Shown here one piece after another: positions 6,701-35,863 of a stretch of DNA of 35,863 nucleotides. Numbering within the stretch: position 1 is the first letter of the stretch; each line of letters begins with the position of its first letter. This DNA is from a virus. Both the position numbers and the translations under genes were made by a program. The stretch is taken from IMG/VR virus record IMGVR_UViG_3300020469_000120, positions 1 to 35,863 of that record. One strand, given 5' to 3'. The notes beneath the pieces were generated by a model, which saw only the letters and a program-made list of their open reading frames with translations, had not been told where the DNA came from and made no database searches.

Positions 6701-8496
6701 ATGGTAGTACGAAAGTAATTTTTAAAGCAAATGGCAATTTATTAATAGGCAAAACCGCAGATAACAATAGTGATGTTGGAATCAGAATGCAATCCACAGG
6801 CCACACAAGCATCGTTAAATCTGGTGGTAACTGCCTAACCTTAAATCGTTTGAGTACAGATGGTAGCCTTTTAGACTTTAGGAAAGACACTGGAACTTTG
6901 GTGGGTAGTATTGGTACTGGTAACAGTGGCAATCTCTATATAGGTTCTGGTGATGCAGGTATTAATTTTAATAAAGATGTCAACTCTGTTTATCCAATCA
7001 ATGTAGATACTGGTGGAGCCACCAATGGAACACTAGATTTAGGTTTATCTGCTTATCGCTTCAAAGACGGTTATTTTTCAGGGAATTTATTTGCCGCAAC
7101 TGGTTTGGGAGTTGGAACTACATCAGTTTTATCTGAGTCAAATGTAGTAAGTTTGCAAATTGGTAGTTCATCAGTAGCCGCATCTCAATTAGTATTAGAC
7201 GATAATGATAGCAATGGCCCTTGGAAAATAAGGTCAAATCAAAGCCTTATATTTTACGATAATACGAGTGAACGCCTCCGCATAGACTCATCAGGTAATT
7301 TTTTGGTGGGTACTTCTTCTACAATTCCATTTACATTCTCAAGCGGCACTGGCGCGGGAATAACGAATGGCGGCACTATTATGGCAGGGGCAACCGCAGA
7401 AGCAGGGTTATTTAATCGTGTTGGCTCAGATGGTGCAATTATTCAGCTATACAAGGCAGGGGGTATCGTAGGCTCAGTTGGAACTGCCGGTGGTGATATT
7501 ACAATAGGTACAGGTGACACAGGCATAACATTTGAGGATGCGATTAATGTAATTCATCCAGTGACTCAAAGCACTGGAGCCGCAAGAGACAATGCTGTCG
7601 ATTTAGGCAAAACAGCGGCTCGTTTTAAAGACGCTCATTTCGCAGGAACCATAAACACTAGAGCTTTAACTGTAGAAAATGACATAAGTGGTGATGCGGC
7701 TTTGCGTATTAAGTCTACGTCAGGCGGTGATCCAATTATCTACTTAAATAGTTCTGCCGCAAACAGAAGTGGCTTAATTAGATATCAAGATAACGGAGTT
7801 AATATTGGCAGAATAGAATATGTCCATAATGGCGACAGAATTGATATGCGAGCAGGGTCAGCGACAGGCATAACAATGAGCGTTGTTAATTCTGGCGTGA
7901 TGATTGGCTCTACCACCCCCTCTAAAACTTTAAAAGTAGAATTCAGTGATACAAATACAAGCACAACAAACGGTGGTACTAAAGGGTTAGAAATTAAAAA
8001 CACTGCTACTGCAACTAACACCTATGCACCTATACACTTCCATGCTAATCAGTCATTTGGAAGGATTGCGTTAAAGAACGTAGATGGTAATGAAGAAATA
8101 AGTCAGTTTGAATTTATTGTTTCAGACGATGGTTCTGCGATAAATGCAATGACTATTGGTTCAACTGGGAATGTGACGATTACAGGATCATGTACAGCAA
8201 CATCGTTCCCAACATCCTCGGATGCAAGATTAAAAGACAACATAGAAGATGCAAAAGACTCTGGCGAGATCATAGACAAAATTAAAGTACGCCAATTTGA
8301 TTGGAAGAAGACAGGTAAGCACCAAGATTACGGAATGATAGCTCAAGAATTGATTTTGGAATGTCCTGATGCAGTCTCAACACCTACCGAAGATCACGAA
8401 ATGATGGGCGTAGATTATTCTAAGCTCGTCCCTTTGATGATGAAAGAAATACAAAACCTTAGGAAAGAAATTAAATCACTTAAAGAAAAGGAGTAA
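3706..8496 (+). CDS. Long tail fibre with S74 intramolecular chaperone
   Basis: At 1596 residues this is the longest gene. It begins with a GELA attachment module (PSSLEHGELAINYADGKIFY), followed by about 1400 residues of Gly/Ser/Thr/Asn-rich beta repeats. The C-terminus is a Peptidase_S74 chaperone: TSSDARLKDNIEDA, then FDWKKTGKHQDYGMIAQEL and a final coiled coil (LRKEIKSLKEKE). The S-x4-K dyad of the family corresponds to Ser1505 and Lys1510, so self-cleavage before Ser1505 would release a 92-residue chaperone after trimer folding. Several internal duplications are present: TISSGAI five times, an IDGN...LDADGG block twice and a DLG..A.RFKD block three times. It is the likely receptor-binding fibre. 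Confidence 0.92.
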   Translation: MAQTIKLKNSGTSSNTPSSLEHGELAINYADGKIFYKNSSNSIVEFANLSGSFLPLSGGTLTGGLTAPSLTVDNITIDGNEIDVSSGNLTLDVAGDIILDADGGDIRFSDGGTQFGIIFKSGNDLALFSNISNGDLLFRGNDGGANITALTLDMSNAGAATFNNNVTANRVIVADGIQDTGQGGSATIFNESGSTADFRVESNGNTHMLFVDGGSNRVAIGHSAPATILDIHGTSPTLNIRDLTSAATGVGGAITLQGYTSGTGSPNNFGKISGTKASGNVGGVLTLSTSATNGTMTDRMTISESGAATFNSTISSGAITASSVNASGGFLNGSNGGIRVHTSGTKFFNVTAANVARDNIMDIGAADARFKNLHLGGTISSGAITSTGLTANGATEINSTAAIPLKIAYNNANYMAIGHEFTDVVSGGVGHIFKISGTQKMLLSASGLDVTGSAKITGSASANTSAITMGFTAPDGEIKVKNTTGAPASNLDFYTTNSSGTTAIAMRLTDEKDVSISRNLTMNGTLIGASSISCGTISSGAILATANDYQFRIKRTDNAGEDWRFLSWSQGLNIFPASNQSSTVWFGRDGGNTDVSVYNGSLKIGTTTVIDASRNLTNIGTISSGAITVDHTDGTDNISLTPTSTGGVINTRNSSGTSVVVMDGRGTPFIDVAGNLKTGGTTRIDSSGNLSSIGTISSGAITSTGLTVNATGSSYPTISHSNGNRIQLQPSYNYYNAYSHIFSSLNGTTNHLTIANTGNATFSGSVTANAGVTVDTINIDGNTIATSSGNFFIDSASDIFLDADGGNVFLRDNGTNFGNFNHNGSNLRIDAKETNGNIHLNPNGTGSVNVLSSLMVGSTTAPRADLHISGNDNKNLVIQNTTYQSSGQNTEVGLRFKATAGSDDERAKAGIILKNDGSAYGRGDLHFVVDSNDDNGNAEVSDSKMVITHEGRVGIGTFSPDEKLDITGGFLKFNGGDYGLKGSASLTYNAVSDHYFQSNGSTKVIFKANGNLLIGKTADNNSDVGIRMQSTGHTSIVKSGGNCLTLNRLSTDGSLLDFRKDTGTLVGSIGTGNSGNLYIGSGDAGINFNKDVNSVYPINVDTGGATNGTLDLGLSAYRFKDGYFSGNLFAATGLGVGTTSVLSESNVVSLQIGSSSVAASQLVLDDNDSNGPWKIRSNQSLIFYDNTSERLRIDSSGNFLVGTSSTIPFTFSSGTGAGITNGGTIMAGATAEAGLFNRVGSDGAIIQLYKAGGIVGSVGTAGGDITIGTGDTGITFEDAINVIHPVTQSTGAARDNAVDLGKTAARFKDAHFAGTINTRALTVENDISGDAALRIKSTSGGDPIIYLNSSAANRSGLIRYQDNGVNIGRIEYVHNGDRIDMRAGSATGITMSVVNSGVMIGSTTPSKTLKVEFSDTNTSTTNGGTKGLEIKNTATATNTYAPIHFHANQSFGRIALKNVDGNEEISQFEFIVSDDGSAINAMTIGSTGNVTITGSCTATSFPTSSDARLKDNIEDAKDSGEIIDKIKVRQFDWKKTGKHQDYGMIAQELILECPDAVSTPTEDHEMMGVDYSKLVPLMMKEIQNLRKEIKSLKEKE
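4642..5811 (+). repeat. Five copies of a ~22-bp direct repeat in the fibre gene
   Basis: The segment encoding TISSGAI(T/L) occurs at about 4642, 4837, 5311, 5566 and 5788, with almost identical DNA (core ATCTCTAGTGGTGCTAT). The DNA identity exceeds what the protein needs, which suggests recent duplication or ongoing recombination within the fibre gene. Confidence 0.85.
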
Positions 8497-8499
8497 GAC

Positions 8500-8841
8500 A
8501 TGGCGGCAACGTGGAAAATAGTGGAGTTAGAGCGTAACAGCAAAGCTCCGAATAAGGATGGTGTCATTGTAGCGCATTGGCGTTGTGAAGATTCCGAAGT
8601 AGTAGGCACTGGCGATGACGCAGTTACTCACTACGGATCATCATACGGCACTTGTTCTTGGACACCTGATTCAACCAAAGAAGATTACGTCAAGTACGCT
8701 GATCTGACTGAGGATGCTGTAATAGTTTGGGTCAAAGCATCTGAGTCTGTATCTGCTGATGACATCGAGGCAAGCATAGCGGCTCAAATAGCTGACAGTA
8801 AAGCACCTGCAATTACTACAGGAGTGCCTTGGAATGTCTAA
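8500..8841 (+). CDS. Conserved small phage protein downstream of fibre
   Basis: 113 residues, soluble and acidic. The pattern WKIVELERN, then GVIVAHWRCED, then GDDAVTHYGSSYGTCSW and a C-terminal DDIEASIAAQIAD is a family I recognise from many marine phages directly after fibre genes. Its function is not established and the exact family number is uncertain. It starts 3 bases after the fibre stop and overlaps the next gene by 8 bases, so all three are probably co-translated. A fibre assembly accessory or small virion protein is possible. Confidence 0.75.
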   Translation: MAATWKIVELERNSKAPNKDGVIVAHWRCEDSEVVGTGDDAVTHYGSSYGTCSWTPDSTKEDYVKYADLTEDAVIVWVKASESVSADDIEASIAAQIADSKAPAITTGVPWNV

Positions 8842-9136
8842 TCCTAGTGTTCAATTACCATTATGGGCATTACCATTAGTAGTATCTTTGTTTGTAGGAG
8901 CTATAAGCTACGGCGCGGCTAAAGCTAATGCGGAGGCTACCGCTAAAGAAGTGGAACGTGTAGAAAAAATAGTAGAAAAGGTAACTAGTTCTAGTGCGGA
9001 ACATGGTAAACAAATTGCTTTAAATGCACAAGCAATAAAAACAATTGCAGATGGGTTGGCAGATCAAGCGGAAATTTCAAAGAGTACTGATGAAAAATTA
9101 GGTAAACTTATTGAGATAATGCTAGCCAAGCAGTAA
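8834..9136 (+). CDS. Membrane-anchored coiled-coil protein (spanin- or holin-like)
   Basis: 100 residues. One N-terminal transmembrane segment (about residues 9-30, LWALPLVVSLFVGAISYGAA) is followed by a charged helical, probably coiled-coil region to the end (AEATAKEVERVEKIVEKV and on). This is the architecture of inner-membrane spanins (Rz-like) or of some class II/III holins. A 3TM holin lies 1.1 kb downstream and a lipoprotein elsewhere, so the spanin reading is attractive but unproven. The ATG overlaps the previous gene by 8 bases. Confidence 0.65.
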   Translation: MSNPSVQLPLWALPLVVSLFVGAISYGAAKANAEATAKEVERVEKIVEKVTSSSAEHGKQIALNAQAIKTIADGLADQAEISKSTDEKLGKLIEIMLAKQ

Positions 9137-9385
9137 GTGAATTTAAAAGTTTTTTTTGCATTAGTAATAATTGTAAATGGAGAACCTGAAGGAAAGCGGA
9201 CAACAATCTGGAGAAGCTTGCAGGATTGTCGTTGGTACGCACAGTTACTTAGTAGAGAAGATAGCTACTATAAACCTGTAGAGCAAGCATACTGTGAGGC
9301 AGTTTGGTTAGACCCTGAAGACGTAACACCTCATAGTATAAAAGTAATACCTAAGCCTGTACCGGAAGAAAATGAAAACGAATAG
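9137..9385 (+). CDS. Small protein with hydrophobic N-terminus
   Basis: 82 residues, GTG start abutting the preceding stop codon. The N-terminus (NLKVFFALVIIVNGEP) is hydrophobic and could be a weak export signal or membrane-associated strand. Two cysteines (31 and 53) could form a disulphide, and the tail is acidic. Similar short proteins with an ALVxxVNG start and a Cys pair occur in marine podoviruses and cyanophages. No function is known. The location among lysis and tail genes suggests an envelope role. Confidence 0.6.
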   Translation: MNLKVFFALVIIVNGEPEGKRTTIWRSLQDCRWYAQLLSREDSYYKPVEQAYCEAVWLDPEDVTPHSIKVIPKPVPEENENE

Positions 9386-9394
9386 GAAAATAAA

Positions 9395-9946
9395 ATGACA
9401 ACAATATTGACTAAATCAAGCGACACAGCAACAAGTAAACCTACTAGTTTAACTAGAGGATCAGGTGCTGAACTTGCTGTAAACACGGCTGACCAAAAGC
9501 TTTATGTAGAAAACTCAAGCGGTGCAGTAGTGGAAGTAGCTCCTGCTGTTAATTCCTATCCTGTTGGTTCTATTTATATGAGCGTTACAGCGGCTACTCC
9601 AAGTGATGTTAACACTATATTAGGCGGAGGAACTTGGGAAGTTTTTGGAGAAGGAAGAGTTTTAGTAGCTCACAGTACTACTGATACTGCTTTTGACGCA
9701 TCATCTGGAACTACAGGTGGTAATAAAACAACTAATTTAACTGTTGGTCAACTTCCTGCACACACTCACGATGTTCAATATGATAATGAAACAAACATGG
9801 AAAAGCAAAGTAGCGGACCAGATCATATTATAAGTGAGTTAGACGGTACTACTTTAACGAGAACAACTACTTCTACTGGTAACGGAGATCCTGTAGAACT
9901 TTTACAGCCTTACATTTCAGTATATATGTATAAAAGGACAGCATAA
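9395..9946 (+). CDS. Tail fibre/collar protein with gp10-like C-terminal domain
   Basis: 183 residues. The N-terminus repeats the attachment module in variant form (PTSLTRGSGAELAVNTADQKLYVENSSG). The second half, YPVGSIYMSVTAATPSDVNT followed by GGGTWEVFGEGRVLVA, GGNKTTNLTVGQLPAHTHD and a closing LQPYISVYMYKRTA, is the collar / T4 gp10 C-terminal type domain that caps short fibres; the PAHTH motif can bind metal in this family. Probably a short tail appendage that shares a docking site with the long fibres. Confidence 0.8.
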   Translation: MTTILTKSSDTATSKPTSLTRGSGAELAVNTADQKLYVENSSGAVVEVAPAVNSYPVGSIYMSVTAATPSDVNTILGGGTWEVFGEGRVLVAHSTTDTAFDASSGTTGGNKTTNLTVGQLPAHTHDVQYDNETNMEKQSSGPDHIISELDGTTLTRTTTSTGNGDPVELLQPYISVYMYKRTA

Positions 9947-10321
9947 ATGTCATTGTTATTAAACACTTTAGTTGAGCCTGTAACTGGATTATTAGATAAG
10001 TTTATACCTGATGCAGATAAGAAAGCTAAGTTAGCCCATGAGATAGCAACGCTTTCCGAAAAACAACATCAGGAAATAATGTTAGCACAGATTGAACTTG
10101 CTAAAATAGAAGCACAAGGCAGTATGTTACAGCGAACTTGGCGGCCCATGATTGGCCATTGCTGTTGGATTGGCTTGATGTACAATGTAATTATAAGTCC
10201 ATTTCTAGGTATCTGGTTACCAGTACCGGAGATACAAAGCGACCTACTTTATCCTGTTTTGCTTGGAATGTTGGGAATGTCAGGAATTAGAGGAATGGAA
10301 AAAGTTAAGGGGAAAGCATGA
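9947..10321 (+). CDS. Holin, GTA-type 3TM family
   Basis: 124 residues. An N-terminal amphipathic segment (LVEPVTGLLDKFIPDADKKA) and a helical linker (EIATLSEKQHQEIMLAQIELAK) precede WRPMIGHCCWIGLMYNVII and a second hydrophobic segment near LLYPVLLGMLGMSGIRG. This matches the holin family first seen in gene transfer agents, with the conserved WRP before the membrane segments. It would form the inner-membrane pores that release the M15 endolysin encoded at 29849. It starts directly after the previous stop and overlaps the next gene by 4 bases (ATGA). Confidence 0.8.
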   Translation: MSLLLNTLVEPVTGLLDKFIPDADKKAKLAHEIATLSEKQHQEIMLAQIELAKIEAQGSMLQRTWRPMIGHCCWIGLMYNVIISPFLGIWLPVPEIQSDLLYPVLLGMLGMSGIRGMEKVKGKA

Positions 10322-10965
10322 CATATAGAGAGTTAGTTAATAGTGTTTTGGTTAGATTAAGAGAAAACGAAGTAACTACCGTTTCTCAAAATTCTTATTC
10401 TAAATTAATTGGTGAGTTAGTAAATGATGCAAAAAGAATTGTTGAGGATTCTTGGGATTGGCACTCATTACGAACTACATTCACAATAAATACAATTGTT
10501 AATGTATTTAGTTATCAATTATCAGAATCAGATGTTGGTTTAAAAACATTAGATGTTATTAATGATACTTCTAATTATTTTATGAAACCAGTATCATCAA
10601 CGTATATGAACAATGCTTATTTAAACAGTTCTGTACCTAATAGTTCTCCAGTATATTATTCGTGGAATGGATTTAGTGAAACAGGAGAAGCTTTAATAGA
10701 TATTTACCCTATTCCTGATAAACAATATACAATCAGAATTAACGCAGTAGATAAAAAAGGTAGAATGTCTGCTGATACAGATAAAGCATTTGCACCCTCA
10801 GATGCAATAATACAATATGCTTATGCACTTGCGGCAAGAGAAAGAGGAGAGACAGGAGGAACTTCAGCAAGTGAACTGTTTGGTATTGCTAATCAAACCC
10901 TAGCAGACCGTATTGCTTTAGATGTAGCAAGGTCTGAGGGCGAAGCTATTTGGATGCCAGTATAA
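10318..10965 (+). CDS. Tail tubular protein A (T7 gp11-like)
   Basis: 215 residues, similar in length to T7 gp11 (about 196). The features DAKRIVEDSWDWHSLRTTFTI near residues 37-57 and a C-terminal region with YAYALAARERGETGG are typical of podovirus gatekeeper/adaptor proteins. It would form the ring between portal and nozzle. The start codon overlaps the holin stop (ATGA), and its stop overlaps the next start (TAATG), indicating coupled translation with tail protein B. Confidence 0.85.
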   Translation: MTYRELVNSVLVRLRENEVTTVSQNSYSKLIGELVNDAKRIVEDSWDWHSLRTTFTINTIVNVFSYQLSESDVGLKTLDVINDTSNYFMKPVSSTYMNNAYLNSSVPNSSPVYYSWNGFSETGEALIDIYPIPDKQYTIRINAVDKKGRMSADTDKAFAPSDAIIQYAYALAARERGETGGTSASELFGIANQTLADRIALDVARSEGEAIWMPV

Positions 10966-12548
10966 TGGCTCAACCTATACAACAACTTACAATTCAAGCT
11001 CCTGCTTTTTTTGGTTTAAATACCACAGATTCTCCTGTAGGTATTGATCCTAACTTTGCATCTGTAGCTACTAATTGTGTTATAGATAAACAAGGTAGAA
11101 TCGGAGCAAGAAAAGGTTTAACAAATTTACATAGCGGTTCTACAACTAAAACTATTGAAACTACTTTTGAATCTGTTTTGGAAAACGGATCAGTAGAAAT
11201 ATTCTCTACAGGAACGGAAGGAAGTACAAATAAAATATTTAAAGGAATAGATTTAATTGAGCAAACACTTCCTTCAGGATATAACATAACAGCTAATGAT
11301 TGGAAAATTGTAAACTTTAGAAACGATACTTATTTTTTTCAAGCAGGACATAATCCTTTAGTTTATGAAAACAATGCGTTAGTTGATTTAACAGTAGCAG
11401 ATTCAGCGGCTCCTCAAGCTAATGAAGTGTTGTCTGCTTTTGGTAGACTTTGGGCGGCTGATATTGCTAACAATAAAACAACTGTATTTTTTAGTGACAC
11501 ATTAATAGGTAAAGGAGCAAACGCTTGGACTCCTCAAAGCGGACCTACTCCTCCGGCTAATCTAGCAGGAAGTTTAAACATTAGCGAAAACTTACCAAGC
11601 GGTCCTGATGAAATAGTAGCACTACACGCTCATAATGGATTCTTAATTATATTTTGTAAAAAATCTATTTTAATTTATGGTAATCCAGAAAGCCCTACTT
11701 CATTAGCTTTAACAGATAGTATAGCAGGAGTAGGATGTATAGCAAGAGATTCAGTACAAAATATAGGTACTGATGTTTTATTCTTGTCAGATACAGGAGT
11801 AAGAAGTTTAGGCAGAGTTATACAGGAAAAATCTATGCCTATGAGAGATGTTAGTAAAAACATAAGAAGTGATTTACTAACTTTAGTACAGCGAGAAACA
11901 AACAAAGCTAATATAAAATCTGGATATAATGCTGAAGAAGCTTTTTATTTGTTAACTTTTCCTAATAGTAATACTGTAATTTGTTTTGATGTAAGAAGTA
12001 GTTTACCAGACGGTGCATTTAGGGTAACAACATGGTCAGACATAAATCCATTGTGTTTTACTACAAGAAGAGATAACTCATTAATAGTAGGTAAGCTTGG
12101 CGGGTTATATAAATATACTGGATTTTTTGATAAAGAAATTGAAAATGGAAGTTATGTACCTAAAGATTATCAATTAAGTTATTTTAGTAATCCTATGAAT
12201 TTTGGAAACTCTTCTAATTTAAAGTTTCTTAAAAAATTTAGAATAACAGTAATAGGAAATCGAGATGCTGAAACAGTTCTTAATTGGGGGTATGATTATA
12301 CTACGGCTTTTAATAAACAAGTAATTAATAACGAGCAAAACAACTTAGCATCAAACGCAGGAGAATATGCTGTAAGTGAATATAACACAACCGCTGAGTA
12401 TTCAGGAGGAATTGATTTACAAAATCCAACAGTTAATGGTTCTGGAAGTGGCAATGTATTAACTATAGGTATTGAATCAACTATCCAAGGACAAAGTTAT
12501 TCTTTACAACAAATAGACGTAAACGTATTATTAGGGAGAACAATATAA
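10965..12548 (+). CDS. Tail tubular protein B / nozzle
   Basis: 527 residues from the ATG at 10965, which overlaps the upstream stop (TAATG). An in-frame TTG at 10950 is possible but has no better ribosome site. The protein begins with LTIQAPAFFGLNTTDSPVGI and INKQGR/ARKG-type strands (VIDKQGRIGARKGLTN), then many beta strands, including FLIIFCKKSILIYGNPES and DVLFLSDTGVRSLGRV, consistent with the propeller-like nozzle fold of T7 gp12-type proteins. It is shorter than T7 gp12 (about 790 residues) but a usual length for marine podoviruses. It attaches below tail protein A and holds fibres. Confidence 0.82.
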   Translation: MAQPIQQLTIQAPAFFGLNTTDSPVGIDPNFASVATNCVIDKQGRIGARKGLTNLHSGSTTKTIETTFESVLENGSVEIFSTGTEGSTNKIFKGIDLIEQTLPSGYNITANDWKIVNFRNDTYFFQAGHNPLVYENNALVDLTVADSAAPQANEVLSAFGRLWAADIANNKTTVFFSDTLIGKGANAWTPQSGPTPPANLAGSLNISENLPSGPDEIVALHAHNGFLIIFCKKSILIYGNPESPTSLALTDSIAGVGCIARDSVQNIGTDVLFLSDTGVRSLGRVIQEKSMPMRDVSKNIRSDLLTLVQRETNKANIKSGYNAEEAFYLLTFPNSNTVICFDVRSSLPDGAFRVTTWSDINPLCFTTRRDNSLIVGKLGGLYKYTGFFDKEIENGSYVPKDYQLSYFSNPMNFGNSSNLKFLKKFRITVIGNRDAETVLNWGYDYTTAFNKQVINNEQNNLASNAGEYAVSEYNTTAEYSGGIDLQNPTVNGSGSGNVLTIGIESTIQGQSYSLQQIDVNVLLGRTI

Positions 12549-28104: not shown

Positions 28105-28941
28105 TTACCCTATCGCTATTATGTCTTTGAACTGGTCCAGATTCGCGGCTGTCACAAAGAATGAATCCGATCTAGTATTGTCCGCGTCACGTTCCTCAAT
28201 GCTCGACCCTTTACGCTTTAACGCTCCGATTACTGGACCGTCTAAGTGTCTGAGATCGGTATTGTCAAAGTTAGCAAATCCCACCGGAACGGCGAGGGAG
28301 TCGCGGCTGATTCCTTTTGTATTGAACGCAATCGCGATCCGGTGCTTTCGCTGTACTGCTTTGAGTAATGCCGCGCGGCTTTGTGTACTGTACATCGAAC
28401 CGGAAAACGTGAGATCATAGTTATCAAGTGTATTCTTTGAAATCCGGCTGAGAATCTTTGTATAGTCATAGAACAAAGATTCTGGACGTTGTTTGATGAT
28501 ATAGGAAAAATCTAGGTCAGATGTACCATTAAGCCGGAATAATGCCGGAATGCCGTCACTCGCCGCTTTGCGCTCCGCTTTGTCGATCTCTGACAATAAC
28601 TGAACCTCGAACCATTCTGGACGCATCAGCATTAAAACAGTGCGCTTTGTCGCGGCATTCTGACCGGTTGTCATTCCTAATTGTCCGGACGATATCAAAC
28701 ATGGCTTTTTGCATCCGGCTAAGTCAGCGAATACACAAAGAGTTTTTGTGCTGACTTTATCAGCCGGTTGTAAATATAATATGTACGTGGTGAACTTATC
28801 CGCGCCTTTCTCAACCTTTTGACTACTGCCGAACAACTTCATGGGCTTGTTTAAATACTCTAGATTATCGCGGCCCCATTGTTTCGCCTTGTTGTTTATG
28901 AGACCGCTTGCGTTGATCTCTTCAATGCTTATCTGTTCCAT
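28105..28941 (-). CDS. Conserved phage/plasmid protein of unknown function (gp88-like)
   Basis: 278 residues. It resembles the 'gene product 88' type family of phages and plasmids: a cysteine cluster (Cys69, Cys77, Cys81 in GCKKPCLISSG), RPEWF near 108, RLNGTSDLDF (136-145), YDYTK (158-162), an NTKG strand and a late DLRHLDGP...ALKRKG block. The family's role is unknown; the Cys cluster could bind metal. The DNA is visibly richer in G+C (many CGC, CCG, GCG words) than neighbouring genes, which suggests separate origin. It is the first gene of the leftward arm, so it is probably made very early. Confidence 0.75.
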   Translation of the reverse strand: MEQISIEEINASGLINNKAKQWGRDNLEYLNKPMKLFGSSQKVEKGADKFTTYILYLQPADKVSTKTLCVFADLAGCKKPCLISSGQLGMTTGQNAATKRTVLMLMRPEWFEVQLLSEIDKAERKAASDGIPALFRLNGTSDLDFSYIIKQRPESLFYDYTKILSRISKNTLDNYDLTFSGSMYSTQSRAALLKAVQRKHRIAIAFNTKGISRDSLAVPVGFANFDNTDLRHLDGPVIGALKRKGSSIEERDADNTRSDSFFVTAANLDQFKDIIAIG

Positions 28942-28972: not shown

Positions 28973-29003
28973 AGTATAAGCATAGGTTATTATCTATTGT
29001 CAA
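28973..29003 (-). promoter_or_regulatory. Candidate leftward early promoter
   Basis: On the minus strand a perfect TTGACA (29003-28998) is followed 19 bases later by TATACT (28978-28973). The spacing is longer than the optimal 17. It lies about 32 bases before the first leftward gene, whose ribosome site (AAGGG) is modest. Confidence 0.5.
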
Positions 29004-29090
29004 ACATTATTTTAATTTATTTTCTAATGGCCTCTATAGGCTACCCCTTAGGCTCTCACACTTGCAATTCTCATGCCAACTTGTGTGGCC

Positions 29091-29151
29091 TGTGGATAAC
29101 CTGTGGATGGCGTGGATAACTTGTGTATATAAATGTATAACCTGTGGATAA
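29091..29151 (+). other. Cluster of DnaA-box-like sites (candidate origin)
   Basis: TGTGGATAA, the complement of the perfect DnaA box TTATCCACA, occurs at 29091-29099 and 29143-29151. Near matches are TGTGGATGG at 29102 and CGTGGATAA at 29111, with TGTATAA at 29134. Four such sites in 61 bases in a non-coding divergent region, next to a G tract and AT-rich DNA, is the arrangement of a DnaA-dependent origin or regulatory region. Confidence 0.6.
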
Positions 29152-29291
29152 CTTTGGGGGGCGGGGGGGCTTTTTGCTACATTATTTTTTTTATGTACCC
29201 TACGGCATACAAAAAAGACTAAATTAGAAAAAAAAGATTAACTCGGCCCTTTAAGTAAACATTTGATTTACAAGTGAAATCTACACGCCGC

Positions 29292-29353: not shown

Positions 29354-29382
29354 TTGACATTTACTAAAAAATATGCTACAAT
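29354..29382 (+). promoter_or_regulatory. Strong sigma70 promoter for packaging operon
   Basis: TTGACA, exactly 17 bases, then TACAAT: one mismatch from the full sigma70 consensus. It lies about 100 bases ahead of TerS. Three bases after the -10 is AAGTATAGTT, nearly the palindrome found at the same place in the promoter at 34865. Confidence 0.88.
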
Positions 29383-29484: not shown

Positions 29485-29856
29485 ATGGATACTAAAGTAA
29501 AGAGAGGCCGCCCTAAGAAGACAGAGATGGTCTCCAGAGCTAGAGGCAAGACAGGTTTGTCTCGCGGTAGGCCCAAAGGTGATGCCGCAATAATTAATGA
29601 ATACAAGGGGAGGATGTTGTCTTCCCCAAAGTCGAGAAAAGTTTTAGAGTCGATATTCGATGCGGCACTAAATGATGACCATAAGAATCAAGCGGCGGCT
29701 TGGAAGATAGTAATGGATAGAATACTGCCTACTGCTGTCTTTGAAAAGGATGTCATTAAGGGAGCAGGAAGGTCAGCTATCCAAATAAATATTACAGGTG
29801 TGGATAACGCTGTTATACAACCTGATCCCATAGAAGGAGATATTATCGATGGCTAA
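29485..29856 (+). CDS. terS: Terminase small subunit (probable)
   Basis: 123 residues. The basic N-terminus has two AT-hook-like motifs, KRGRPKK (6-12) and SRGRPKG (26-32). A helical segment (SPKSRKVLESIFDAALNDDH, then NQAAAWKIVMDRILP) follows, of the type seen in small terminases, and an acidic end (PDPIEGDIIDG). It is the first gene after the strong promoter and one short gene ahead of TerL, as expected for the DNA-recognition subunit of the packaging motor. The ribosome site (AAGAGA) is weak. Sequence similarity alone is modest. Confidence 0.72.
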   Translation: MDTKVKRGRPKKTEMVSRARGKTGLSRGRPKGDAAIINEYKGRMLSSPKSRKVLESIFDAALNDDHKNQAAAWKIVMDRILPTAVFEKDVIKGAGRSAIQINITGVDNAVIQPDPIEGDIIDG

Positions 29857-30208
29857 GTATTTTAAGATGGAAGAGTTTTCCTGTCAGTATACCGGCGAGA
29901 ATAAAATTAAACCAGAATTTGTAGAGGAACTTGATAAGCTTAGAGAAGCTTGTGGATTTCCTTTTGTTATAACTAGTGGCTATCGGTCACCATCACACCC
30001 AATAGAGGCAAAGAAAAAAATTGCAGGACAACATTCACAAGGTCATGCCGCTGACATTAAAGTTAGTAACGGCATTGAAAGATATAAATTGGTACAGGAA
30101 GCTATTCGTTTGGGATTCACAGGTATTGGAATATCTTCTAATTTTATCCATGTTGACACCCGTGATTTATTCGATGAAAGTTCTTCTGTAATGTGGACGT
30201 ATAGTTGA
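29849..30208 (+). CDS. Endolysin, peptidase M15 family
   Basis: 119 residues, a single Peptidase_M15 domain. VITSGYRSPSHPIEA (40-54) and QHSQGHAADIKV give zinc ligands His62 and Asp69, and FIHVDTR gives His101. The closing W.Y is also typical. It would cleave peptidoglycan peptide cross-links, giving lysis once the holin opens the membrane. No signal peptide is visible, so release depends on the holin. It overlaps TerS by 8 bases and TerL by 4, an unusual placement inside the packaging unit but known in marine podoviruses. Confidence 0.92.
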   Translation: MAKYFKMEEFSCQYTGENKIKPEFVEELDKLREACGFPFVITSGYRSPSHPIEAKKKIAGQHSQGHAADIKVSNGIERYKLVQEAIRLGFTGIGISSNFIHVDTRDLFDESSSVMWTYS

Positions 30209-31458
30209 CTGAGTTAAACGTATCGTTACTTCCGTGGCAACAAGAAGTTTTTAACGATACAACAAGATTTAAAGTTATTGCCGCAGGAAGACGAACCGGC
30301 AAAAGTAGGTTAGCCGCTTGGATGCTAATCATCAGAGGGCTACAAGCTGACAGGGGCCATGTGTTTTACGTAGCACCCACTCAAGGTCAGGCTAGAGATA
30401 TTATGTGGCAAGTATTGATGGAGCTAGGCCATACAGTAATTGCCTCAAGTCACGTTAATAATTTACAAATAAAATTAATTAACGGTGCAACCATAGCTCT
30501 GAAAGGAGCAGACAGACCCGAAACGATGCGAGGGGTTAGTCTTAGGTTTCTTGTCATGGATGAGTATGCCGACATGAAACCCGAAGTATGGGAACAGATA
30601 TTACGTCCGGCACTTGCGGACCAAAAAGGTGATGCGTTGTTTATTGGAACCCCAATGGGCAGGAATCACTTTTACGATTTATATACATACGCTTGTGTGT
30701 CAGACGATCCGACATTTGTTGGTTATCATTTTACAAGTTATGATAATCCATTGTTAGATAAAGAGGAAATAGACGCGGCTAAACAGTCGATGTCAGCTTT
30801 TTCCTTTAGACAAGAGTTTATGGCATCTTTTGAAGCACAAGATTCCGAACTGTTTAAGGAAAAGTATGTTAAGTTTTCTGAGGAAGAACCAGATATAGGT
30901 GATTATTATATCTCAGTGGACTTAGCCGGTTTTGCAGATGTTAACAAAGCTACAACAAAAACAAAACGTCTGGACCAAACAGCTATTTCCGTAGTAAAAG
31001 CTAACGAAGAAGGATGGTGGGTAGCGGAAATTATCCACGGTAGATGGGATGTTAAGAAAACAGCAAATAAAATCTTTGAAGCTGTAGCTGATTATCGTCC
31101 AGTTGCCGTAGGTATAGAAAAAGGTGCGTTAAAAAACGCAGTACTTCCGTATTTAAGCGACTTAATGAAGAAACATCAAAGGTTTTTTAGAGTTGACGAG
31201 CTTACACACGGTAATAAAAAGAAAACTGACCGTATTGTTTGGGCATTACAGGGTCGGTTTGAACACGGAGCTATAGTTTTAAATAAAGGAGACTGGAATA
31301 CACAGTTCCTAGATGAATTGTTTCAGTTTCCTAACCCTTTAGTTCACGATGACCTGATTGATTCTTTATCATACATAGATCAATTAGCAAATATAGCATA
31401 TACTTCCGATTTTGAGGAAGAGGAATATGAATTTTTAGACGCATATACAGGATATTGA
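30205..31458 (+). CDS. terL: Terminase large subunit
   Basis: 417 residues with both domains. ATPase: Walker A AGRRTGKS (27-34), Walker B RFLVMDEYAD with Asp119/Glu120, and coupling motif GTP at 148-150. Nuclease: Asp239 in ISVDLAG, a second acidic site near LDQTA, and the C-terminal HDDLIDSLSY motif. It packages DNA into the prohead through the portal encoded next. The start is TTG, overlapping the endolysin stop; no ATG or GTG lies upstream of the Walker A in this frame, so the TTG is accepted and suggests low, coupled expression. Confidence 0.95.
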   Translation: MTELNVSLLPWQQEVFNDTTRFKVIAAGRRTGKSRLAAWMLIIRGLQADRGHVFYVAPTQGQARDIMWQVLMELGHTVIASSHVNNLQIKLINGATIALKGADRPETMRGVSLRFLVMDEYADMKPEVWEQILRPALADQKGDALFIGTPMGRNHFYDLYTYACVSDDPTFVGYHFTSYDNPLLDKEEIDAAKQSMSAFSFRQEFMASFEAQDSELFKEKYVKFSEEEPDIGDYYISVDLAGFADVNKATTKTKRLDQTAISVVKANEEGWWVAEIIHGRWDVKKTANKIFEAVADYRPVAVGIEKGALKNAVLPYLSDLMKKHQRFFRVDELTHGNKKKTDRIVWALQGRFEHGAIVLNKGDWNTQFLDELFQFPNPLVHDDLIDSLSYIDQLANIAYTSDFEEEEYEFLDAYTGY

Positions 31459-31459
31459 T

Positions 31460-33406
31460 ATGGCTTATAATGATAATGAAAATTTTATGGTCGAAGAAAC
31501 TTTAGAGGGTTGGGTAAACGATAAGTGTTTAGACTGGAAGAATCATTTTGATACAAATTACTCCAGAAAGTTTGATGAATACTATCGTTTGTGGCGTGGA
31601 CAATGGTCTGGGGAAGATAAAACTAGAGGCTCTGAGCGATCTCGTATCGTCAGTCCTGCATTACAACAAGCTGTAGAGTCAGCAGTAGCGGAGCTAGAGG
31701 AAGCTACTTTCGGTAGAGGTAAGTGGTTTGACATTGAAGATGATGTCATGGATAACGAAAAAGCCGACATTGCTTATCTTAGGGAAACTCTTCTTAAAGA
31801 TTTTAAAAAGAATAAAATTAGAAAAGCAATAGCGGAATGTCTAATAAACTCAGCAGTTTTTGGCACAGGTATTGCTGAGATTGTTTTGGAAGAAGAAAAG
31901 AACATGGTTCCGGCTACTCAACCTGTCATGGGAGGAGACCTTACTGCTGTAGGTGTAAATGTCGAAGACAAAGTTTGTGTTAAGTTACGTCCTGTTATGC
32001 CTCAAAACTTTTTAATTGATCCGGTTGCTACTTCAGTTGAGGAAGCAATGGGAGTTGCAGTAGATGAGTTTGTTTCTTTACATACAGTTGAAATGCTACA
32101 GGAAAAAGGTGTATATCGAGATGAAGAAATAAGCTCTAGTCCTCCAGACTTTGATATAGAAGCCGATAAAGAAGCGGTATCCTATGCTGAAAATAAAGTT
32201 AGATTATTAAAGTATTATGGTTTAGTTCCTAGAGAATTATTAGAAAAAGCACAATCAGAAGACAATGCCGAAGATGAGACTAATTTATCAGTTGATAGCA
32301 CAGATGAAATAGAAAGTCAATACGTAGAGGCTATTGTTGTTATAGCTAATGAAGGAACACTTTTAAAAGCTGAAGCCAATCCTTACATGATGGAAGATAG
32401 ACCAATAGTTGCTTTTCCTTGGGACGTAGTGCCTAGCCGTTTCTGGGGTAGAGGTATATGTGAGAAAGGATATAACTCTCAAAAAGCATTAGACGCTGAA
32501 CTAAGAGCTAGAATAGACGCTTTAGCTTTAACCATTCATCCTATGTTGGCTATGGATGCAACAAGATTACCTAGAGGAACAAGACCTGAAGTTAAAGCAG
32601 GAAAAGTTATATTAACTAACGGTTCTCCTAACGAAGTACTTAAGCCATTTAACTTTGGCAATGTCAGTCAACTTACGTTTGCTCAAGCAGACTCTTTACA
32701 AAAAATGGTACAAACCGCAACCGGAGCTATTGACTCCGCAGGAATAGCCGGAAGTATTAACGGTGATTCCACAGCGGCAGGAATATCTATGTCTTTAGGT
32801 GCAATCATTAAAAGACATAAACGAACTCTTATAAACTTTCAGGAATCTTTTTTAATTCCTTTTGTAACAAAAGCCGCACACAGATATATGCAGTTTTCCC
32901 CTGAAGAATATCCGGTAGCTGATTACAAGTTCCATACTTCAAGCTCGTTAGGTATTATTGCTAGAGAATATGAAGTATCACAGCTTGTACAGTTGTTACA
33001 AACAATGTCTCCTGAAACTCCAATGTATTCACAGTTGATCATGTCTATTATAGATAACATGAACTTGTCTAATCGTGAGCAATTAATAGCATCACTACAA
33101 CAAGCTAATCAACCAAACCCAGAAGCAATGGAAGCACAACAAGCGGCACAACAATCTCAATTAGCTTTCCAAGCATCGCAAACTGCGGCGTTAAATGGAC
33201 AAGCTGTAGAGTCACAAGCAAGAGCCGCGAAGCTAGCTACTGAGGCACAAAGTATTCCGGAAGAATTAGAAATAGATAGAATTAAAGCTGTCACTACTAA
33301 TCTTAAGGAAGGAACCGCAGAGGACAAAGAGTTTGAACGTAGGATAAAACTTGCTGATCAACTGCTTAAAGAAAGACAAGTAGCCGTAAAGGAGAGAATA
33401 AATTAA
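31460..33406 (+). CDS. Portal protein
   Basis: 648 residues. The N-terminal half contains RSRIVSPALQQAVESAVAEL and ATFGRGKWFDIEDD, and the core has PQNFLIDPVATSVEEAM and VAFPWDVVPSRFWGRGICEKG, all characteristic of podovirus portals. The C-terminal ~110 residues are Gln/Ala-rich and helical (EAMEAQQAAQQSQLAFQASQ onward), likely the barrel reaching into the capsid. It lies between the T7 (536) and P22 (725) portals in size. The ATG follows the TerL stop by one base. Confidence 0.93.
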   Translation: MAYNDNENFMVEETLEGWVNDKCLDWKNHFDTNYSRKFDEYYRLWRGQWSGEDKTRGSERSRIVSPALQQAVESAVAELEEATFGRGKWFDIEDDVMDNEKADIAYLRETLLKDFKKNKIRKAIAECLINSAVFGTGIAEIVLEEEKNMVPATQPVMGGDLTAVGVNVEDKVCVKLRPVMPQNFLIDPVATSVEEAMGVAVDEFVSLHTVEMLQEKGVYRDEEISSSPPDFDIEADKEAVSYAENKVRLLKYYGLVPRELLEKAQSEDNAEDETNLSVDSTDEIESQYVEAIVVIANEGTLLKAEANPYMMEDRPIVAFPWDVVPSRFWGRGICEKGYNSQKALDAELRARIDALALTIHPMLAMDATRLPRGTRPEVKAGKVILTNGSPNEVLKPFNFGNVSQLTFAQADSLQKMVQTATGAIDSAGIAGSINGDSTAAGISMSLGAIIKRHKRTLINFQESFLIPFVTKAAHRYMQFSPEEYPVADYKFHTSSSLGIIAREYEVSQLVQLLQTMSPETPMYSQLIMSIIDNMNLSNREQLIASLQQANQPNPEAMEAQQAAQQSQLAFQASQTAALNGQAVESQARAAKLATEAQSIPEELEIDRIKAVTTNLKEGTAEDKEFERRIKLADQLLKERQVAVKERIN

Positions 33407-35533: not shown

Positions 35534-35863
35534 ATGGCAACATTTATTGAGCGTCAGGATAAAGACGATAAAAAAGAAGACGAAGTAATTAGCGATATTA
35601 ATGAAACAAGTGTTGATAAACCTTTAGAAGAATTAGAGGAACCAACAACCGAAACGGAAGCTAGCACTGAGGAAGTAATTCCTGATAAGTACCAAGGTAA
35701 AAGCACAGCGGAAATAGTGCGTATGCACCAAGAAGCTGAGAAACTTTTAGGTAGGCAAAGTTCCGAAGTAGGTGAGCTAAGAAAAGTCGTTGATGATTAT
35801 ATCCAGACACAACTCACAAGCGAGAACGCACCGAAACAAAAGGATGAACAGGAAGAAATAGAT
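35534..35863 (+). CDS. Capsid scaffolding protein, N-terminal part
   Basis: The start ATG has GGAG 7 bases upstream. The first 68 codons before the overlap encode an acidic, disordered stretch (DKDDKKEDEVISDINETS, then EELEEPTTETEASTEEVIPD). DKYQGKSTAEIVRMHQEAEK follows, a motif typical of podovirus scaffolds. The last 42 codons repeat the window start; the remainder of the 273-residue protein is at 127-618. Confidence 0.88.
   Translation, partial: MATFIERQDKDDKKEDEVISDINETSVDKPLEELEEPTTETEASTEEVIPDKYQGKSTAEIVRMHQEAEKLLGRQSSEVGELRKVVDDYIQTQLTSENAPKQKDEQEEID
35738..35863. repeat. Contig-end overlap, right copy (circular join)
   Basis: Matches 1-126 except C at 35815 in place of T at 78. See the left copy. 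Confidence 0.93.

Follow-up and report, generated by a model that had tools for sequence, protein, structure and literature searches.

The window analysed here, a stretch of 35,863 nucleotides of viral DNA, contains a 543-bp non-coding gap between two divergent genes, at 28941 on the minus strand and 29485 on the plus strand, and this gap holds a cluster of DnaA boxes. To its left, minus-strand genes encode a GP88-family protein (28105–28941, minus strand; Pfam match to PF17338), the first early gene and head of the replication operon, as well as an ssDNA-binding protein, primase/helicase, family-A polymerase, exonuclease, endonuclease and ribonucleotide reductase. To its right lies the gene for a probable small terminase (TerS) of 123 aa (29485–29856, plus strand), assigned from gene order and conservation (a Pfam search with the product gave no match), upstream of the genes for endolysin, TerL (30205–31458) and portal, with the capsid gene reached across the contig ends. 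A sigma-70 promoter for TerS and the structural operon, TTGACA-17-TACAAT, with 11 of 12 consensus matches, is located at 29354–29382 (plus strand), and a possible early promoter, TTGACA-19-TATACT, was read from the sequence at 28973–29003 (minus strand), a promoter scan with spacings of 16–18 having given no call. The ends of the window, 1–126 and 35738–35863, overlap by 126 nt, of which 125 are identical, inside a presumed scaffold gene; thus, the assembly is complete and circular, at about 35.7 kb. IMG/VR classes the record as linear despite this overlap. The window TerL displays a weak and distant match to T5-like terminases (32% over 202 aa), TerS has no match in the phage collection, and the closest cultured relative of the polymerase is 52% identical, so that the search for a closely related cultured phage whose ends are known gave none.

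Two exact DnaA boxes, TGTGGATAA, are present at 29091–29099 and 29143–29151 (both minus strand, where they read TTATCCACA), within 61 bp of each other, as a preliminary description of this DNA had reported. Dinucleotide shuffling of the window, repeated 1500 times, never produced such a pair, the mean number of exact boxes per shuffle being 0.39; one-mismatch boxes over the whole window are not over-represented (14 against 10.9 expected). The box at 29143, which is the first of the array, lies 63 bp from the conserved element A described below. Between the two exact boxes, all on the minus strand, follow a degenerate box with 3 mismatches, TTATACATT, on an 11-bp register (29132–29140), a degenerate box region with 2 mismatches, TTATATACACA (29122–29132), and the two near matches of the preliminary description, TTATCCACG with 1 mismatch (29111–29119) and CCATCCACA with 2 (29102–29110). 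The weak boxes share the register of about 11 bp with the exact ones, which had been overlooked. One further exact box, at 29799–29807 inside the TerS gene, is probably due to chance.

The run of G residues that had been described next to the boxes is indeed there: GGGGGGCGGGGGGG (CCCCCCCGCCCCCC on the minus strand) occupies 29156–29169 and is followed by T-rich DNA, including the stretch TTTTTTTTCTAATTTAGTC (29217–29235, minus strand) that adjoins element A. Three features of the gap had not been mentioned before. Element A, TTTTGTATGCCGTAGGGTAC (29195–29214, minus strand), is a conserved boundary on the terminase side and may be where a direct terminal repeat ends; element B, GCAAGTGTGAGAGCCTAAGGGGTAGCCTATAG (29034–29065, minus strand), is a conserved boundary on the early-gene side; and a sigma-54 −24/−12 site, TTGGCATGAGAATTGCA (29063–29079, minus strand), with the GG-N10-GC pattern and consensus flanks, is oriented towards the early genes. 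No NtrC-like activator site was recognised in the window cassette. Another sigma-54-like site, inside the portal gene at 31861–31876, is probably fortuitous.

Relatives were gathered from viral contigs through polymerase-, TerS- and pattern-anchored scans, which yielded 139 loci that share the layout; this total probably includes a few chance matches or overlapping pieces of one contig. In about 100 distinct relatives the non-coding slot that separates the early genes from the small terminase gene is the same, and the order within it, from the TerS side, is element A (TTTTGTAT-N6-GGGTAC), the C tract, a cassette of about 100–200 bp, and element B (AGTGTGAGTATGC-N4-GGATACC-like). In nearly all members the tract begins 42–47 bp past the start of A, and A, tract and B are kept regardless of what the cassette contains; T-rich DNA beyond the tract, similar to that in the window, is likewise found whether or not a relative has DnaA boxes. 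The likeness between A and B is moderate (17 of 100 members reach 12 or more matches out of 16, where about 1.6 would be expected), which rules them out as perfect direct repeats, and the contig ends of 15 relatives show no pile-up at A or B. In one relative (L129), the first ~60 bases are an inverted copy of the TerS start at the contig end, probably an assembly or amplification chimera.

Within this frame the DnaA boxes are strictly placed. In 33 of 48 arrays the distance from A to the first box is 60–64 bp, gaps between boxes are mostly 11 bp (67 times) or 22 bp (25 times), and the resulting period of about 10.7 bp (R=0.61, n=172) puts the boxes on one face of the helix. DnaA binds the consensus TTWTNCACA, in which positions 5 and 3 are degenerate, and these are the positions of the commonest substitutions in the one-mismatch boxes of the cassettes. 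The DnaA boxes are real and clearly under selection: about half of the non-redundant relatives have them, in a constant position and register, and they change mainly at the degenerate positions. An unbiased scan of viral contigs for paired DnaA boxes placed 79 of 91 pairs in non-coding DNA, and 21 of the 91 had a C tract close by, compared to 1 of 226 random stretches; since most paired-box arrays have no C tract near them, not every phage DnaA array belongs to the module framed by A, tract and B.

DnaA boxes are far from the only sites in the slot. Counted over 102 non-redundant cassettes and compared with dinucleotide shuffles, exact DnaA boxes number 161 (0.35 expected) and sigma-54 sites 74 (0.00 expected); Fur sites (10 versus 0.00), NtrC-like sites (11 versus 0.65, in 7 of the 102 relatives) and parS-like sites (5 versus 0.10) are also enriched, the statistics for these and for LexA being based on small counts in few cassettes. 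By contrast, the control motifs CRP, FNR, PurR, TrpR, IHF, TyrR, FadR and MetJ are all absent from the 102 cassettes. Measured against real sequence of the same contigs, DnaA boxes reach 7.20 versus 0.161 per kb (about 45-fold) and sigma-54 sites 3.28 versus 0.061 per kb (about 54-fold), and these enrichments are conservative given that the background may itself contain a few cassettes. Only DnaA was a question posed beforehand, the other site types having been spotted by reading and assessed post hoc, but the sigma-54 enrichment is far beyond any post hoc correction: all 74 pairs of half-sites have the correct 5-base spacing, versus none at seven other spacings (2 to 9). Of these sites, 69 are oriented towards the early genes; they are often tandem, in stacks of 3–5 within a short stretch, and several cassettes combine them with NtrC-like sites. 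No recognised site type was found in 35 of the 102 cassettes, and de novo reading of these identified GTCTTATATAAGAC as the sole recurrent palindrome, present 11 times in the 102 cassettes (0.10 expected). Repeats of the palindrome GTCTTATATAAGAC(ATAAGAG) occur in the cassettes of L208, L260, L265 and L288, and those of L094, L103 and L104 carry GC-rich repeats, e.g., CGCGCACACACGTACAC, in place of the DnaA array. GATC is depleted in the cassettes of the 102 relatives (25 versus 49 expected).

Comparison of near-identical phages reveals that whole cassettes are swapped. From TerS through A, L094 and L095 have virtually the same sequence, and beyond A they are unrelated, with a DnaA array in one member of the pair and none in the other. 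The pairs L037/L041, L115/L137 and L099/L095 behave likewise, as does the window paired with its closest relative possessing the frame, L005 (88% identity in the polymerase, 95% in TerS), the divergence beginning in or at A in each case, whereas L096/L097 and L112/L120 share a longer stretch before diverging. In L005 the corresponding slot contains no DnaA box, and many relatives keep the frame yet carry sigma-54, Fur, ParB or other repeats.

The frame resembles the direct terminal repeats of T7-type phages, which likewise combine a C tract, short repeats spaced at about 11 or 22 bp and a conserved junction, and in which, as in the window group, the repeat content varies and the flanks are conserved; the window group follows the T7-type order of boundary, C tract, short repeats and boundary next to the terminase genes. 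In the T7-like Enterobacter phage phiEap-1, five exact DnaA boxes lie inside a sequence of ~196 bp deposited at both ends of the record, in the order left end, C tract, boxes, concatemer junction, and the same order applies to P483, nasanit and NJ2, by homology to the annotated terminal repeat of BA14 and the T7 left end. T7, BA14 and several Berlinviruses possess other short repeats in the terminal repeat. The likeness has its limits: in phages of the phiEap-1, P483, nasanit and NJ2 type only DnaA boxes or repeats of no recognised type were found, in contrast to the mixed window group, and the boundary sequences of the enterobacterial T7-like phages differ from A and B. In LIT1, boxes are found ~200 bp outside its 655-bp terminal repeat, and no DnaA arrays were detected in the portions examined of CRP-143 and HTVC103P. 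Fur-box-like repeats occur near the record end of Roseobacter phage CRP-143 (about 42250–42420 of locus L085), downstream of the terminase genes.

A second parallel comes from phage T5, whose annotated injection stop signal (AY543070, 9140–10149) lies inside the left terminal repeat, near its inner edge, downstream of the pre-early genes. It contains DnaA boxes, an array of Fur boxes and a near-perfect LexA box, TACTGTATAAATATACAGTA (sites at about 2390–2720 of locus L170, which corresponds to 7000–11500 of AY543070), and a comparable non-coding region of T5-like Vibrio phages includes DnaA and sigma-54 sites as well as Fur-like and LexA-like ones. The presence of DnaA boxes in the T5 injection-stop region is already in the literature (PMC13250531); among open-licence papers, none dealt with its Fur/LexA content or with swapping. 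Both the T5 signal and the window array are non-coding and mix host-type sites, although the mixtures differ (DnaA with sigma-54 in the window, DnaA with Fur and LexA in T5), the terminal position of the window array is presumptive, and the T5 region spans ~1 kb in a 10-kb repeat and lacks the frame of A, C tract and B. A query for Fur boxes matched 636 phage records, and among the matches listed most are T5-like in size and host.

We propose, with a probability of roughly 0.55, that 29034–29214 serves host DNA-binding proteins as a modular docking array, likely located at the genome terminus, where it would form a nucleoprotein block with a role at the DNA end. The boundary elements A and B flank the array, the C/G tract sits beside A, and the slot between them holds DnaA boxes and one sigma-54 site in the window, and sites for DnaA, sigma-54, Fur, NtrC, ParB and others, variously combined, in relatives. 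As in T7-like phages, a short direct terminal repeat is most likely delimited by A and B or has them at its edges. Host proteins bound to the terminal DNA in register could then do a mechanical job: keep the leading end in place or make it pause as the DNA enters, protect the free DNA end, or flag the concatemer junction and stall it during duplication and cutting of the terminal repeat. The site type would be exchangeable, as the task would ask for no more than a host protein that is abundant and binds tightly. A physical role of this kind suits the data better than either an origin or a specific signal would, given that the common factor is sequence-specific binding by widely conserved host proteins rather than any single pathway. 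A circular assembly with a 126-nt overlap is expected if a terminal repeat collapsed, but headful circular permutation would equally yield one. Against this interpretation speak, for this marine group, the lack of a contig-end pile-up, the moderate likeness of A and B, the 35 of 102 cassettes with no recognised site, the other repeats in T7, BA14 and Berlinviruses, and the boxes outside the repeat in LIT1.

The strongest rival explanation, because of the sigma-54 sites that face the early genes, is that the slot provides upstream control of the early operon, with DnaA, NtrC plus sigma-54, Fur and LexA tuning early transcription to host physiology and cassette swaps rewiring it. The one-way orientation of 69 of 74 sites suits promoters too, the perfect −24/−12 spacing is that of sigma-54 promoters, several cassettes combine NtrC-like and sigma-54 sites, and all the proteins concerned except ParB are transcription factors in their hosts. 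However, it is from A and the C tract, on the terminase side, that the array takes its position, parS is no promoter element, the T5 array lies downstream of the pre-early genes, and 3–5 tandem sigma-54 sites with no recognised activator site are odd for promoters. On balance, we regard transcriptional control as unlikely. Still less probable is a decoy or sponge, in which replicating phage DNA titrates DnaA, sigma-54, Fur, LexA or ParB and thereby disturbs host replication or regulation. Perfect consensus sites for central host proteins, multiplied by the phage copy number, would be suited to this end, but each genome has only ~2–12 sites, all in a single slot close to the terminal junction and in strict register, whereas titration needs no fixed place or frame and leaves the location shared by T7-like and T5-like phages unexplained.

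The purpose assigned to the boxes in the preliminary description, a host-DnaA origin of phage replication that stands in for a missing phage polymerase, now appears very improbable. Phage DnaA-box clusters are sometimes called origins, e.g., by Ori-Finder (PMC11512268). The window does present a strong box cluster in the same orientation near T-rich DNA, as do bacterial oriC and plasmid origins, and the T7-type RNA polymerase is indeed lacking: a PF00940 profile search of the whole record found none, and neither did a search of three relatives of 35–38 kb, while the polymerase was detected in the positive controls CRP-143 and P483. Phages of the phiEap-1, P483, nasanit and NJ2 type, however, encode their own polymerase (checked in P483), and P483 possesses the same kind of array, so that the array is not a replacement for that enzyme. 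The GC-skew switch that had been suggested as a check does exist, from negative to positive near 29 kb (with the reverse near 19.2 kb), but since both sign changes coincide with changes in gene direction, it is not diagnostic of an origin, and we dropped the inference from skew. The other suggested check, conservation of the boxes, speaks against an origin: about half of the relatives have them, in a constant register, but they are missing from the same slot in L005 and the other half, while T-rich DNA is kept there. Unlike the boxes of oriC or plasmid origins, those of the phages are thus dispensable and are replaced by sites of unrelated host proteins, and with the closest relative lacking any box there and whole cassettes being swapped, an essential DnaA origin is hard to reconcile with the data. 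Least credible of all are terminal short repeats that serve the phage terminase only and resemble host sites by chance or convergence: the unrelated repeats at the same place in T7, BA14 and others and the conservation of A, C tract and B independently of the cassette would agree with this, but the exact host consensus for several unrelated proteins, the strict sigma-54 spacing and the box degeneracy at DnaA's own tolerant positions would not.

We tentatively extend the docking-array interpretation, at less than even odds, to a general phage module, an exchangeable cassette of host-protein sites (DnaA, sigma-54, Fur, NtrC, ParB, LexA) at the genome terminus whose nucleoprotein complex would work mechanically in DNA entry or in forming the terminal repeat. 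Judged against open-licence papers, such an exchangeable module may not yet have been described as such; the open-licence papers on phage DnaA boxes, decoys and host-site arrays yielded only the mention of T5 boxes and the single Ori-Finder origin prediction cited above. If it exists, the module would span T7-like and T5-like phages and explain both the terminal short repeats of T7 and the injection stop signal of T5, which would become testable together. What was presumed to be an origin would instead be a landing strip for host proteins, found at the same place in many phages and swapped like a plug-in, and the dependence of a phage on host DnaA, RpoN, Fur or ParB would be predictable from its terminal sequence.
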